In this document: positions 441-31,166 of the stretch, one piece after another
Numbering within the stretch: position 1 is the stretch's first letter
How the letters are laid out: the number at the start of each line of letters is the position of its first letter
Source of the DNA: a virus
Direction: 5' to 3' (one strand)
Virus record (IMG/VR): IMGVR_UViG_3300033153_008198
Location: 1 to 35,396 of that record
Length of the DNA stretch: 35,396 bases
Position numbers and translations under genes: made by a program
Notes under the pieces: generated by a model
The model's database searches: none
Told to the model about the DNA's origin: nothing
What the model saw: only the letters and a program-made list of their open reading frames with translations

Positions 441-520
441 TTAAATTTAGCCGAGCAATCGGGTAGAATATTAGACCCTTACTCTTATCTTGCGAAAACT
501 TAGAGTAAGGGTCTGCTTTT
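441..520 (+). promoter_or_regulatory. Leader module A: palindromic promoter followed by a 5' stem-loop
   Basis: TTAAAT (441-446), 17 bases, TAGAAT (464-469). Between them is the palindrome CCGAGCAATCGG (451-462), which could be an operator. A 13-bp perfect stem follows (473-485 with 502-514, AGACCCTTACTCT and its complement), then GCTTTTA. A transcript starting near 476 would have this terminator-like hairpin as its 5' end. The same order recurs at 2515-2583 and 4442-4526; module B repeats GCCGAGCAATCGG exactly. Confidence 0.5.
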
Positions 521-1873: not shown

Positions 1874-2068
1874 ATGAAAAGCGGACTACAGGAATTCATG
1901 AAGAAAACATGGCCTGAGAAAAAGATCGCATTGTTAAGAGAGGCTTGGCCATATCGTGATGCTAGACCTGAAAGCGTTAAAGACAAGTCTTGTCGTATGC
2001 GGATTAGATATCACCAGATGCTACAAGAGTTGAGAATGGAATATAACAAAGTGAATAAATCAAACTAA
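1874..2068 (+). CDS. Small basic protein of unknown function (64 aa)
   Basis: ATG 1874 has GGAG seven bases upstream, overlapping the end of the previous gene. The product is rich in Lys, Arg and Trp (FMKKTWPEKKIALLREAWPY) and predicted helical. It resembles in style small DNA-binding or SANT/GcrA-like helices, but I cannot assign a family. Its last nine bases overlap the 3' end of the convergent RusA-like gene. Confidence 0.6.
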   Translation: MKSGLQEFMKKTWPEKKIALLREAWPYRDARPESVKDKSCRMRIRYHQMLQELRMEYNKVNKSN

Positions 2069-2461
2069 AGGAATGATTTCAATTGCTACATGCGGATCAT
2101 TCTTTTTAACTTCACCTGTATAGTAATGTGATGCAATAATATAATTATCATTATCATCCTCAACGCAACCCAACTCTACTAGCGAGTCAGCAAAAAACTT
2201 CTCATGAATTGAAAGCACGTTAGCGCGGTCTACACGTCTTTTATCTTTCCGATGCATGGTAAGTCGCAATTCAAATTTAGAAAGTTTTAAATGGGCAATC
2301 TGTGACGATATGAGTGCTTTGTATTTAATCTTGAGGTTGTTATTCACTTGGAAGCAAATATTGCGATATACGTTGAGATTTAAATAGTATCTTTTAACCT
2401 TTCTAACGCCTAGCTCAATATATAAAGGCGACTTGATTATAATTTTGTTATTGATTTCCAT
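2060..2461 (-). CDS. RusA-like Holliday junction resolvase
   Basis: A 133-residue protein from ATG 2461; the open frame further upstream has only a TTG start. RusA enzymes are dimeric metal-dependent nucleases that cut four-way DNA junctions in phage recombination. Seen here: an N-terminal SPLYIELG strand followed by KRYYLNLNVYRN, and the C-terminal signature RRVDRANVLSIHEKFFADSL then VELGCVEDDNDNYI (residues 75-107). By family knowledge the acidic site in E. coli RusA is RDLDN plus a later Asp. D78, D92 and D102/D103 are candidates here, but the second Asp of the first motif is Ala80. No ribosome site is visible and a promoter places the start of transcription next to the ATG, so the mRNA may be leaderless. 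Confidence 0.75.
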   Translation of the reverse strand: MEINNKIIIKSPLYIELGVRKVKRYYLNLNVYRNICFQVNNNLKIKYKALISSQIAHLKLSKFELRLTMHRKDKRRVDRANVLSIHEKFFADSLVELGCVEDDNDNYIIASHYYTGEVKKNDPHVAIEIIPLV

Positions 2462-3052: not shown

Positions 3053-3435
3053 AAGTATTATTAAAATCGATTCCTGAACTTATGGAAACTTATAACGGTT
3101 ATTTTCATGAATGCGGGAGTTTTATTATAGAACGTGATCCTATTTATATAGAACGTGATCCTATTTATATAGAAGAACGGGCGGATACTCACTACTCTTT
3201 TTCAAACGAATCTCTGCATAAATTTGGAGCAGTTGTTGAACTGGATACGTGGATGATTTCAGAGATAGTCAAAAAAGATATTGAAGAAGAAACATTCACC
3301 ATGGAAGCGTGGCTTATTGGATGGGACGACAATGAAGAAGAGCTTGTTTGGGTAAGAGAGAATACGTGGACAGTTGATGATGCTGTTATATCGGCCATTC
3401 GTATCCCATCTGAAGATAAGAAAATAACATTGTAA
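3049..3435 (+). CDS. Acidic protein of unknown function with internal tandem repeat (128 aa)
   Basis: ATG 3049 overlaps the previous stop (ATGA); an in-frame TTG further upstream is not needed. The protein is acidic, with many Glu and Trp (MEAWLIGWDDNEEELVW). Residues about 26-41 contain the repeated heptapeptide IERDPIY, caused by a 21-bp tandem duplication. I recognise no domain. It is last in the 2596-3435 unit, followed by a non-coding stretch with a terminator-like stem. Confidence 0.65.
   Translation: MKVLLKSIPELMETYNGYFHECGSFIIERDPIYIERDPIYIEERADTHYSFSNESLHKFGAVVELDTWMISEIVKKDIEEETFTMEAWLIGWDDNEEELVWVRENTWTVDDAVISAIRIPSEDKKITL
3126..3173 (+). repeat. 21-bp tandem repeat inside a coding region
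   Basis: Two perfect 21-bp units (3126-3146 and 3147-3167) plus the first six bases of a third. Each unit keeps the reading frame and adds seven residues (IERDPIY), so unit number could vary between isolates without breaking the gene. Confidence 0.9.
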
Positions 3436-3499: not shown

Positions 3500-3549
3500 A
3501 GCGTGGGGGATCTAGTTATTATGTTTTACTTTTCCTCCACGCTTTATTA
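3500..3549 (+). terminator. Stem-loop with T-rich tail, terminator-like
   Basis: Arms 3500-3510 and 3533-3543 (GCGTGGGGGA with TCCTCCACGC, one G-T wobble) pair over 11 bp around a 22-base loop, and TTTATTAAT follows. It lies 65 bases after the stop at 3435, so it can end that unit. It also follows an AT-rich TATATA (3495-3500) and may be a fourth, weaker member of the leader stem-loop group. Confidence 0.6.
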
Positions 3550-4441: not shown

Positions 4442-4526
4442 TTAACTAGTGATGGCACGGATGCCGTACTATATTGTGTGCATTGGGCCCTTAGTTTTTC
4501 TCATCCATTTACTAAGGGTCTTTAAA
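4442..4526 (+). promoter_or_regulatory. Leader module C upstream of the late unit
   Basis: It shows the same order as modules A and B. TTAACT (4442-4447) and TACTAT (4467-4472) are 19 bases apart, with the palindrome GGCACGGATGCC (about 4454-4465) between them. A 10-bp stem GGCCCTTAGT with ACTAAGGGTC (about 4487-4521, one wobble) follows, then TTTAAAT. This is the only promoter-like region I see ahead of the 26-kb late unit. The hairpin would be near the 5' end of the late mRNA. Confidence 0.45.
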
Positions 4527-4561
4527 TAGTTCCAGTGGAACACCTTTATGACCCAGTGGGC

Positions 4562-5770
4562 ATGGAGCAAAAATTGAATATCAAATGCAGTTACACTGAT
4601 CTTGTTGATCTAGTGAATTTAGTCCCTCATCCAAAAAACTCTAATAAGCATCCTGATAAGCAGATCGATGTTTTAGCGAAGATAATTAAAGCTCGTGGCA
4701 TGAGACATCCTATTATCATTTCTAAAAGATCAGGGTTTATTACAGCTGGTCATGGCCGTCTAATGGCGCTTAAGAAGTTAGGTGTTGAACAGGCACCAGT
4801 TGATTATCAAGACTTTGAGAATGAGGCAGATGAGATCTTTTTCCTTGAGGCAGATAATCATATTGCTGAATTTGCCGATCATGATAAAAGCATGATGTTG
4901 GATAACTTGAAAGATTTAGATATTGATCTAGATGATTTCGACTTTGAAGAGTTGGGGTTGATTGACTTCGAACTACCGGAAGTTGAGGTTTTGCCGCCTA
5001 GTGAGCAAGACGATGTTGTGCCTGAATTGAAAGCTGATCCAATTAGTAAACGTGGTGATGTTTGGTTGTTAGGTAATCATAGAGTCATGAATGGTGATAG
5101 TACGATGATTGACGACGTGGAAGATCTCATGGATGGGCATAAAGCTGATATGGTTTTTACTGATCCTCCTTATGGAATTTCTGTGGTTAAAAATGGATCT
5201 ATAGGAACAGGCGGTCAATATGCAAAAGGTGGCGACTATAGACCTATAATCGGAGACGATGAGAGGTTTGATGTTTCTTTTATTAGAGAATACTTTGATT
5301 GTGATTTATTTTTATGGGGAGCCAATTACTATTGTCACGATTTAGAAGAAAGTAATAACTGGGTAGTTTGGCAAAAAATAGAATCTTCATTAACATTTTC
5401 CGATGGTGAGTTAGCATGGACGACACTGAAAACCCCATTGAGGATTTATAAGCACATATGGGCAGGATCAATGAGGTCTGGAACGCACAAAGATGAGCTT
5501 AAAAAGAGAGTACACCCCACTCAAAAACCGGTGACTCTTTTCTGTGAAATATTTAAAGACCTAATGGAAGAAAAAAAAGCAATAGTAGATTTATATTTGG
5601 GTTCAGGCTCAACTCTCATCGCCTGCGAAAAAACTAATCGTAAATGCTACGGAATGGAATTATCGGAAGCATATTGCGACGTTATCATTAAAAGATTCCA
5701 AGACTTCACTGGCAAAGAAGCGATATTAGAATCAACTGGCGAAACTTATAATAGCTTAATCAAGGAATAG
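4562..5770 (+). CDS. ParB-like domain fused to DNA methyltransferase (402 aa)
   Basis: It transfers a methyl group from S-adenosylmethionine to DNA (N6-adenine or N4-cytosine class). ATG 4562 is chosen over GTG 4535; neither has a strong ribosome site. Residues 18-100 resemble the ParB/sulfiredoxin N domain (PHPKNSNKHP, then a GHGR loop). An acidic linker follows at about 105-165. The methyltransferase has DPPYG at 201-205, HPTQKP at 318-323 and the SAM loop LYLGSGST at 344-351, so motif IV comes before motif I (beta-type order). No restriction enzyme is nearby, so it is an orphan methylase that may shield phage DNA from host nucleases or mark it for packaging (inference). It stands just before the terminase genes. 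Confidence 0.9.
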   Translation: MEQKLNIKCSYTDLVDLVNLVPHPKNSNKHPDKQIDVLAKIIKARGMRHPIIISKRSGFITAGHGRLMALKKLGVEQAPVDYQDFENEADEIFFLEADNHIAEFADHDKSMMLDNLKDLDIDLDDFDFEELGLIDFELPEVEVLPPSEQDDVVPELKADPISKRGDVWLLGNHRVMNGDSTMIDDVEDLMDGHKADMVFTDPPYGISVVKNGSIGTGGQYAKGGDYRPIIGDDERFDVSFIREYFDCDLFLWGANYYCHDLEESNNWVVWQKIESSLTFSDGELAWTTLKTPLRIYKHIWAGSMRSGTHKDELKKRVHPTQKPVTLFCEIFKDLMEEKKAIVDLYLGSGSTLIACEKTNRKCYGMELSEAYCDVIIKRFQDFTGKEAILESTGETYNSLIKE

Positions 5771-30351: not shown

Positions 30352-30408
30352 GAATCCCCTGTATATAAGGGCCACTCAAAGTTCCAGGTAGAGACTTCAA
30401 GTGACCCG

Positions 30409-30426
30409 ATAGCTACCCCTAGCTAT
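30409..30426. other. Short perfect hairpin at the end of a leftward gene
   Basis: ATAGCTA (30409-30415), loop CCCC, TAGCTAT (30420-30426). It contains the stop codon of the 30423-30599 gene. The downstream bases on the plus strand are T-rich (TTCTCTTCT), so weak rightward termination after the late unit is possible; on the minus strand no T-run follows. Confidence 0.4.
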
Positions 30427-30604: not shown

Positions 30605-30799
30605 TTATCCGATTAAATTTATTTCACATTTGCTATATTTTCTAAACTTTTGCAGCGTCGCATATGTAGGCGTAGCTCTATTATTCATGTACTTGCATAT
30701 AGAGGACTGAGACATCTTCATTTTATTAGCAAATTGCGTTTGAGTGAGGTTATACTTAAGCATGTATGCATTAATTAATTTCATTAACTTGATTTTCAT
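30605..30799 (-). CDS. Cro/CI-type HTH regulator (64 aa)
   Basis: An XRE-family fold: LTQTQFANKMKMSQSSICKY (residues 18-37) is the helix-turn-helix, and RATPTYATLQKFRKY follows as helices 4-5. At 64 residues it is little more than the DNA-binding domain, as in Cro. ATG 30799 has no ribosome site, and a promoter places transcription start on or next to the ATG, so the message may be leaderless, as in lambda cI from PRM; ATG 30784 is the alternative start. A perfect 20-bp palindrome lies directly upstream between two divergent promoters, so it probably controls both itself and the rightward unit at 30858. Confidence 0.85.
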   Translation of the reverse strand: MKIKLMKLINAYMLKYNLTQTQFANKMKMSQSSICKYMNNRATPTYATLQKFRKYSKCEINLIG

Positions 30800-30829
30800 T
30801 TGACATTATTACTCTAGTAATAATATAAA
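30800..30829 (+). promoter_or_regulatory. Rightward promoter of the small-gene unit
   Basis: Consensus TTGACA (30800-30805), 18 bases, TATAAA (30824-30829). The palindromic operator fills the spacer, so repressor binding would exclude RNA polymerase. It drives the genes from 30858. Confidence 0.75.
30805..30824. promoter_or_regulatory. Operator of the second HTH regulator
   Basis: A perfect palindrome with 9-bp arms ATTATTACT and AGTAATAAT around CT. It occupies the spacer of the rightward promoter and the -10/spacer of the leftward one. Its sequence differs from O1 and O2, so the two HTH proteins should have separate targets. Confidence 0.75.
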
Positions 30830-30834
30830 ATCAA
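30806..30834 (-). promoter_or_regulatory. Leftward promoter of the second HTH gene
   Basis: On the minus strand TTGATT (30834-30829), 17 bases, TAATAA (30811-30806). Its predicted start falls on base 30799, the A of the ATG. It overlaps the operator fully. Confidence 0.55.
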
Positions 30835-30857
30835 GTATAAAAACACGGAGTAGTTTT

Positions 30858-31166
30858 ATGGGTATAGGTAGAGGGAAAATGACGGCCATGGAGTTTTACC
30901 GAAAACACGTGGATGGTGAAATTACCGTTAAAAATGATATACAATACTATAGAGGGTCAATAATTGTCGTCTCACCAGATGATGATAAGAAGCAAAAACT
31001 AATAGACCTTGGAATACTAATCGTACCTAAACAGCGCAATTGCTTGCAGTGCTCAAAGCCGTTTCCTAGTACTCGCAATATGAGAGTTTGTAAGGCCTGT
31101 AAATCTGCACGAGGTGATTGGAGTGACGACGGGAATATTTATTATGAATCAAGTAGCGGCTTTTGA
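30858..31166 (+). CDS. Small zinc-type protein, first of the rightward unit (102 aa)
   Basis: ATG 30858 follows CGGAG. Residues 1-50 are basic and end in a hydrophobic stretch (YYRGSIIVVS). The C-terminal half carries CLQCSKPF...VCKACK (C62, C65 and C78, C81 by my count), a two-pair zinc ribbon. Such domains bind DNA or RNA or a protein partner. It is the first gene behind the regulated TTGACA promoter, so probably an early product. The next gene starts inside its 3' end. Confidence 0.65.
   Translation: MGIGRGKMTAMEFYRKHVDGEITVKNDIQYYRGSIIVVSPDDDKKQKLIDLGILIVPKQRNCLQCSKPFPSTRNMRVCKACKSARGDWSDDGNIYYESSSGF

Follow-up and report, generated by a model that had tools for sequence, protein, structure and literature searches.

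The loops of two strong hairpins in the leader-like regions that we call modules A and B are complementary to segments lying further upstream, a defining feature overlooked in the earlier note on this DNA. Each element is built in the order promoter, upstream segment (U) at the predicted transcription start (+1), spacer with a small hairpin, big hairpin carrying the complementary segment (L) in its loop, ribosome site and start codon. The same U/L layout was found in four related contigs (L108, L103, L102 and L109; TerL 59-68% identical), where the sequences diverge while the U:L pairing is retained. We tentatively propose that modules A and B may be bistable 5' leaders of early operons, subject to an antisense-type autoregulation of termination like that of the P4 CI RNA.

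The DNA analysed (the window) is the whole IMG/VR virus record, 35,396 bases long. By protein scans the contig is siphovirus-like, with a tape measure protein and a block of terminase, portal and capsid genes. It also encodes RusA, SSB, HNH endonucleases and a ParB-like/methyltransferase fusion; the proteins scanned included no integrase. The TerL matches listed among isolated phages were all below 30% identity, and a host search in the contigs of a genome collection found no close relative. Two small HTH-like genes are present, at 1-189 and 30605-30799, the second recognized by sequence inspection. Inverted and direct repeats (AAACTAT...ATAGTTT, 210-281) are nested within one another upstream of an HTH gene on the minus strand; they resemble repressor operators around a promoter that would fire into a terminator at 337-382. 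A rightward promoter is predicted just before this terminator (TTGACG-17-TAGTTT, +1 ~312), and an early leader starting there should stop at once at 337-382 unless something prevents it. The second HTH-like protein, on the minus strand, is accompanied by a divergent AT-rich repeat region, ACTAGAGTAATAATGTCAAATG, and the locus (30605-30858) is a possible second regulatory switch. Two further observations concern an 11 bp GC-rich hairpin in a gap (3500-3543, AGCGTGGGGGA...TCCTCCACGCT), followed by TTATTAAT, and an ORF with a perfect in-frame tandem 21 bp repeat at 3126-3167 (7-residue unit IERDPIY).

The earlier note had grouped three gaps, those of modules A (441-520), B (2515-2583) and C (4442-4526), as copies of one unit: a palindrome inside a promoter, a strong stem, a T-rich tail and a gene. 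The hairpins exist. In an exhaustive stem scan of the 35.4 kb window the four strongest, all intergenic, were 337-382 and the big stems of the three gaps (472-515, 2541-2582 and 4485-4521), and the big-hairpin cores of the gaps gave RNA folding z-scores of -4.5, -4.2 and -3.2. Arms of the CCCT/AGGG type, and a small hairpin of 4-6 bp just 5' of every big stem, are present, and the sequence said to be shared exactly by A and B, GCCGAGCAATCGG, occurs at 450-462 and 2519-2531 only (reversed control, 0). The "palindrome inside a promoter" is better read as the small hairpin, whose loop in modules A and B is a GNRA tetraloop. The T-rich tails are weak and interrupted (TCTGCTTTTATC, TTATTTTGTG, TCTTTAAATA), and the three big stems are missing from the output of a terminator scanner that allows loops only up to 8.

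The succession of small and big hairpin does not distinguish a module, as it was found 14 times in 210 kb of family contigs vs 52 times in 882 kb of others. By these counts the tandem is not above background, and it was discarded as a defining feature for want of enrichment in the family contigs. The CCCTTA/TAAGGG arm motif was likewise rejected as a family marker, strong intergenic stems with it being found only in contigs L004 and L100. In a divergent gap of L004, a strong terminator-like stem (5011-5064) comes directly after a predicted promoter; its arms, GACCCTTAATA/TATTAAGGGTTTTT, resemble those of modules A and C, and it has no upstream pairing. The exact module sequence was absent from 2.9 million viral contigs, and a looser palindrome pattern, also rejected, gave 11 chance-like matches, mostly in GC-rich coding DNA. 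Rfam gave no match in the window or in L102, L103, L108 and L109.

Module A (features here and below are on the plus strand unless stated) follows a strong intrinsic terminator with a 17 bp stem and a T-run (337-382), which lies 5' of its promoter and outside the U/L element. The sigma70-type promoter TTTACA-16-TAAACT, predicted at 388-415, is the best of the gap (score 9.7) and sets +1 at 422, the first base of U (TAAGTTTTCGCGA, 422-434). U is complementary over 13 bp, with one G-U, to L (TTGCGAAAACTTA, 490-502). The small hairpin between them (446-467) has the core CCGA-GCAA-TCGG at 451-462, with a GNRA loop, extended by UUUA/UAGA, and the big hairpin (473-514; 472-515 in the stem scan) has a perfect 13 bp stem and a 16 nt loop. 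A 51 aa ORF of no known family follows (536-691, ribosome site AGGGGTGG). A -10 element had been placed between the hairpins, with the mRNA starting on the stem. For module A this arrangement is not supported, the candidate between the hairpins having a lower score than the upstream promoter and a +1 that would fall at 476. Because the best promoter is upstream, the module A RNA would contain both hairpins.

In module B, U (AAGGACTAGCAA, 2486-2497) forms 11 of 12 possible pairs with L (TTGCTAGACCTT, 2559-2570). The small hairpin GCCGA-GCAA-TCGG (2519-2531) again has a GNRA tetraloop, and the big hairpin (2541-2582; 12 bp, 18 nt loop) precedes a 79 aa ORF without PHROG match (2596-2835). The gene for the RusA-like resolvase (2060-2461, minus strand) is divergent from the module, and the -35 of the predicted rusA promoter (TTGCTA, 2497-2492) overlaps U. 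Promoter scoring gave no good plus-strand site in module B, where the candidate between the hairpins (7.0, +1 at 2552) and one upstream (6.6, +1 at 2481) score about equally.

The three gaps are not equivalent as had been supposed. Module C comprises a small hairpin, ATGGCA-CGGA-TGCCGT (4452-4467, from the stem scan and folding), and a big hairpin (4485-4521; 11 bp, 15 nt loop) with no significant upstream complement: 5702 of 16000 loop shuffles scored as well (p ~0.36, the chance level). Its candidate promoter between the hairpins (+1 at 4484) is outscored by others, including one with +1 at 4447, just 5' of the small hairpin. Behind it lies the ParB-like/DNA methyltransferase fusion (4535-5770, with PHROG matches), starting at GTG 4535 or ATG 4562. 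Loop-upstream pairing is lacking in module C, in hairpins L098 1344-1387 and L100 15417-15452, and in a minus-strand hairpin at 30407-30369 (module D), and all four were rejected as members. At 30369-30424, minus strand, a small palindrome, ATAGCTAGGGGTAGCTAT, precedes the module D hairpin, inside an operon and just before a 55 aa ORF.

For module A, 16000 shuffles of the loop gave 2 with a complementarity score as high as the observed one, and 16000 shuffles of the upstream sequence gave 3 (p ~1.3e-4); for module B the same numbers of shuffles gave 51 and 66, respectively (p ~0.003). Since these hairpins had been named before any pairing search, the test is independent of their discovery. L108 was also located as a hairpin first and its pairing examined afterwards (shuffle p ~0.001), whereas L102, L103 and L109 were found by scanning for U:L complementarity itself. 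With the weak case of L100 there are seven instances in all. Their U/L pairs are GGTATTCGCAA/TTGCGAATACT in L108, GATTGAGCAA/TTGCTCGATC in L103, TGTCCGACAG/TTGTCGGACA in L102, GGGACTGCCAA/TTGGCAGTTCC in L109 and GATGTCGC/GCGATGTC in L100. Segment L starts with TTG in six of the seven, and the distance from U to L varies from ~67 to 90 bases. Across the six stronger elements 59 of 60 U:L cells are paired and 14 pairs have changed on both sides, a count that is descriptive: complementarity was the criterion by which U and L were picked, so it is not taken as independent evidence.

The relatives came from TerL scans that yielded 17 contigs at 52-76% identity and then L140. In the family-wide scan, 5 hairpins scored at least 22, where 12 shuffled sets had 0.75 on average, and 3 scored at least 24 against 1 across all 12 shuffled sets together; the five that passed the leader filter lie directly 5' of an ORF. 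The 46 loci from a wider TerL scan, nearly all of lower identity (TerL 35-45%) and GC-rich where listed, gave little or no excess over shuffles, and these more distant relatives were not accepted as members. A scan with the helicase-loader-type ATPase for more leaders added one locus, L134, which lacks the element. On the evidence of these contigs, the element seems confined to this phage group.

By sequence reading, the ORF after the hairpin encodes a replication-initiator-like protein in L102 and L109 and a cytosine methyltransferase in L103; those of A, B and L108 are small. On this basis the downstream genes look early. From the end of the hairpin to the start codon there are 12-21 bases in A, B, L108 and L102, and 85 in L103. 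In L103 a canonical terminator (CGGCGGG...CCCGCCGTTTTTT, 2490-2560) stands between the U/L hairpin and the cytosine methyltransferase gene, so this leader would need read-through. The small hairpin that separates U from the big hairpin has a GNRA loop in A and B (GCAA), L103 (GAAA) and L109 (GCAA); L108 has no such hairpin, and that of L102 is of a different kind. Two relatives also carry ORFs of unusual composition, one of nearly pure Gly/Ser/Asp/Tyr repeats (L102 4415-4732) and one with Ser/Gly/Trp-rich repeats (L103 4319-4492).

The +1 of the best-scoring promoter falls exactly on the first base of U in module A, in L103 (TTTACA-17-TATAAG) and in L100 (TTGACC-17-TAAGTT). In L109 the best promoter has its +1 11 bases before U; in L108 and L102 candidate promoters at U were picked by eye and are not top-ranked by scoring. 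In ensemble folding of growing transcripts, by a model that ignores pseudoknots, true kinetics and proteins, all six strong elements pair U with L at a probability of 0.88-1.0 in a transcript ending at L or a few bases past it. This probability drops to ~0 after roughly 8-15 more bases, as the 3' arm appears. Module C shows no such rise and collapse. U:L and the complete stem could hardly coexist, as 0-6 bases would have to span a helix of 10-13 bp. The leader is thus predicted to pass through one structure and to settle in another.

The mechanism that we tentatively favor would work as follows. Transcription would begin at or beside U, and as the polymerase crosses the big hairpin the nascent L would pair first with the 5' U, so that the small GNRA hairpin is closed in between the two. 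Synthesis of the 3' arm would then let the local stem-loop win and free U. By delaying the terminator-like stem beside the ribosome site, U:L pairing would be expected to favor read-through, while occupation of U by a second copy of the leader hairpin, from a released or processed leader RNA, would favor the stem and premature termination. U and L, changing fast yet always complementary, would set the specificity. Likeliest, in this model, is that the leader controls premature termination or the ribosome site of the first gene; by analogy with the P4 CI RNA it possibly also acts as an antisense in trans. Termination at the stems is not certain, because the U-tracts behind them are weak in all elements but L109. 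The idea of a recurrent 5' leader RNA before genes, plausibly linked to early termination, holds up for A and B, and relatives have such an element too; module C lacks the pairing.

The weak U-tracts would also suit a structure acting in cis only, in which U:L or the 5' hairpins protect the mRNA 5' end or position the ribosome site, with no antisense and no regulated termination. The position of U at the predicted +1 in three elements and the short distance from hairpin to start codon in A, B, L108 and L102, L103 with its 85 bases being the exception, are consistent with such a role. We nevertheless judge it unlikely: a function in stability needs no loop complementarity, equilibrium folding of the complete leader lacks the U:L helix in 6 of 6 elements, and the stem and U:L are sterically unlikely to form together.

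An inverted repeat in DNA would give identical complementarity, and U and L could accordingly be half-sites for a protein, for example one of the two HTH regulators that the phage encodes, with the stem an unrelated terminator or cruciform. The overlap of U in module B with the -35 of the divergent rusA promoter would fit an operator. Half-sites of this kind would, however, have to tolerate the variable U-L distance, to lie always within the loop of a strong stem in the case of L, and to differ between A and B in one phage. Further copies of U or L in the window are not above chance, and operator-like repeats are found elsewhere (210-281), so that we consider this reading improbable.

It is similarly improbable that the stems are ordinary terminators or barriers against stray rightward transcription, with U:L in A and B a coincidence. 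In favor of this reading, the stems lie beyond divergent genes from which read-through could arrive, module C has no pairing and the tandem hairpins are not enriched. It is at odds with the independent p-values for A, B and L108, the excess of 5 over 0.75, the coincidence of +1 with U in three elements and the same position before early genes in related phages.

Several phage RNAs invite comparison. The C4 antisense RNA of phages P1, P7 and N15 (Rfam RF01695) is cut from the leader that it controls; its covariance model gave no match in the window, L102, L103, L108 or L109. In HK022, early transcripts begin with the two stem-loops of the put RNA, and the element resembles it in this respect, compared by description only. 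The put stems stand almost side by side and work in cis on the polymerase, and we know of no loop-upstream pairing in descriptions of put. For the put- or nut-like antitermination raised in the earlier note we found no Rfam match, and no antiterminator among the proteins scanned, which covered the small ORFs in part. The lambda boxB/nut site places a small GNRA-like hairpin in the early leader, whereas the small hairpin here is not constant across elements; no convincing boxA was seen by eye, and no N-like protein was identified among the proteins scanned.

According to PMC4825925 (citing Sabbattini 1995 and Briani 2000), the P4 leader is reported to be terminated prematurely when the processed CI RNA, acting as an antisense, pairs with the seqA and seqC segments there. 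We located in the P4 sequence a seqB-like TCCTGTGAA with two complements, TTCACAGG upstream of it and TTCACAGGA downstream; it lies between short CCGG arms and was read as a hairpin loop. P4 and modules A and B have in common a hairpin-loop segment (seqB in P4) that is complementary to an upstream leader segment (seqA), and the leader is that of an early operon in P4 and probably also in A and B. P4 differs in the ~190 nt between seqA and seqB, in having a seqC further downstream, and in a distinct terminator-like hairpin close to seqA. In the present element, by contrast, U is at the predicted +1 and 67-90 nt from L, L is inside the terminator-like hairpin itself, a small GNRA hairpin stands in between, and Rfam has no match. 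A separate intrinsic terminator after the hairpin is clear only in L103 (GGCGGG...CCCGCCGTTTTTT), and the true terminator of module A (337-382) precedes the promoter. Within 500 bases downstream of A or B there is no convincing seqC-type complement of the loop; those seen are short and chance-like by appearance, and the best for module A (+198, GCAAGGTAAG) falls on another portion of the loop. The element may work in outline like the P4 CI-type family and, having no convincing seqC counterpart, is at most a candidate member.

The Gifsy-1 leader IsrK/STnc1160 has two alternative structures and a short isoform that acts in trans (PMC4825925). It is thus alike in being a phage leader with alternative structures, and differs in activating anrP translation through a helix of ~30 nt with orf45 downstream, whereas in modules A and B a loop is complementary to a segment at the 5' end. 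It is conceivable, if rather doubtful, that the elements form a hitherto unrecognized family of autoregulatory leader RNAs in phages. The first dozen bases and the hairpin loop would then be matched to each other, diverge rapidly and set specificity as a pair, and the two copies in one phage would be orthogonal, the leaders serving as compact RNA immunity or copy-control switches of early operons. To our knowledge, RNA control of early phage transcription is understood in detail for very few systems (P4, P1/N15 C4 and IsrK). If the proposal is true, a compact pair of 5' end and loop that sets specificity, occurs twice in one genome and changes between relatives would be a simple model for the evolution of RNA-coded phage immunity specificities.
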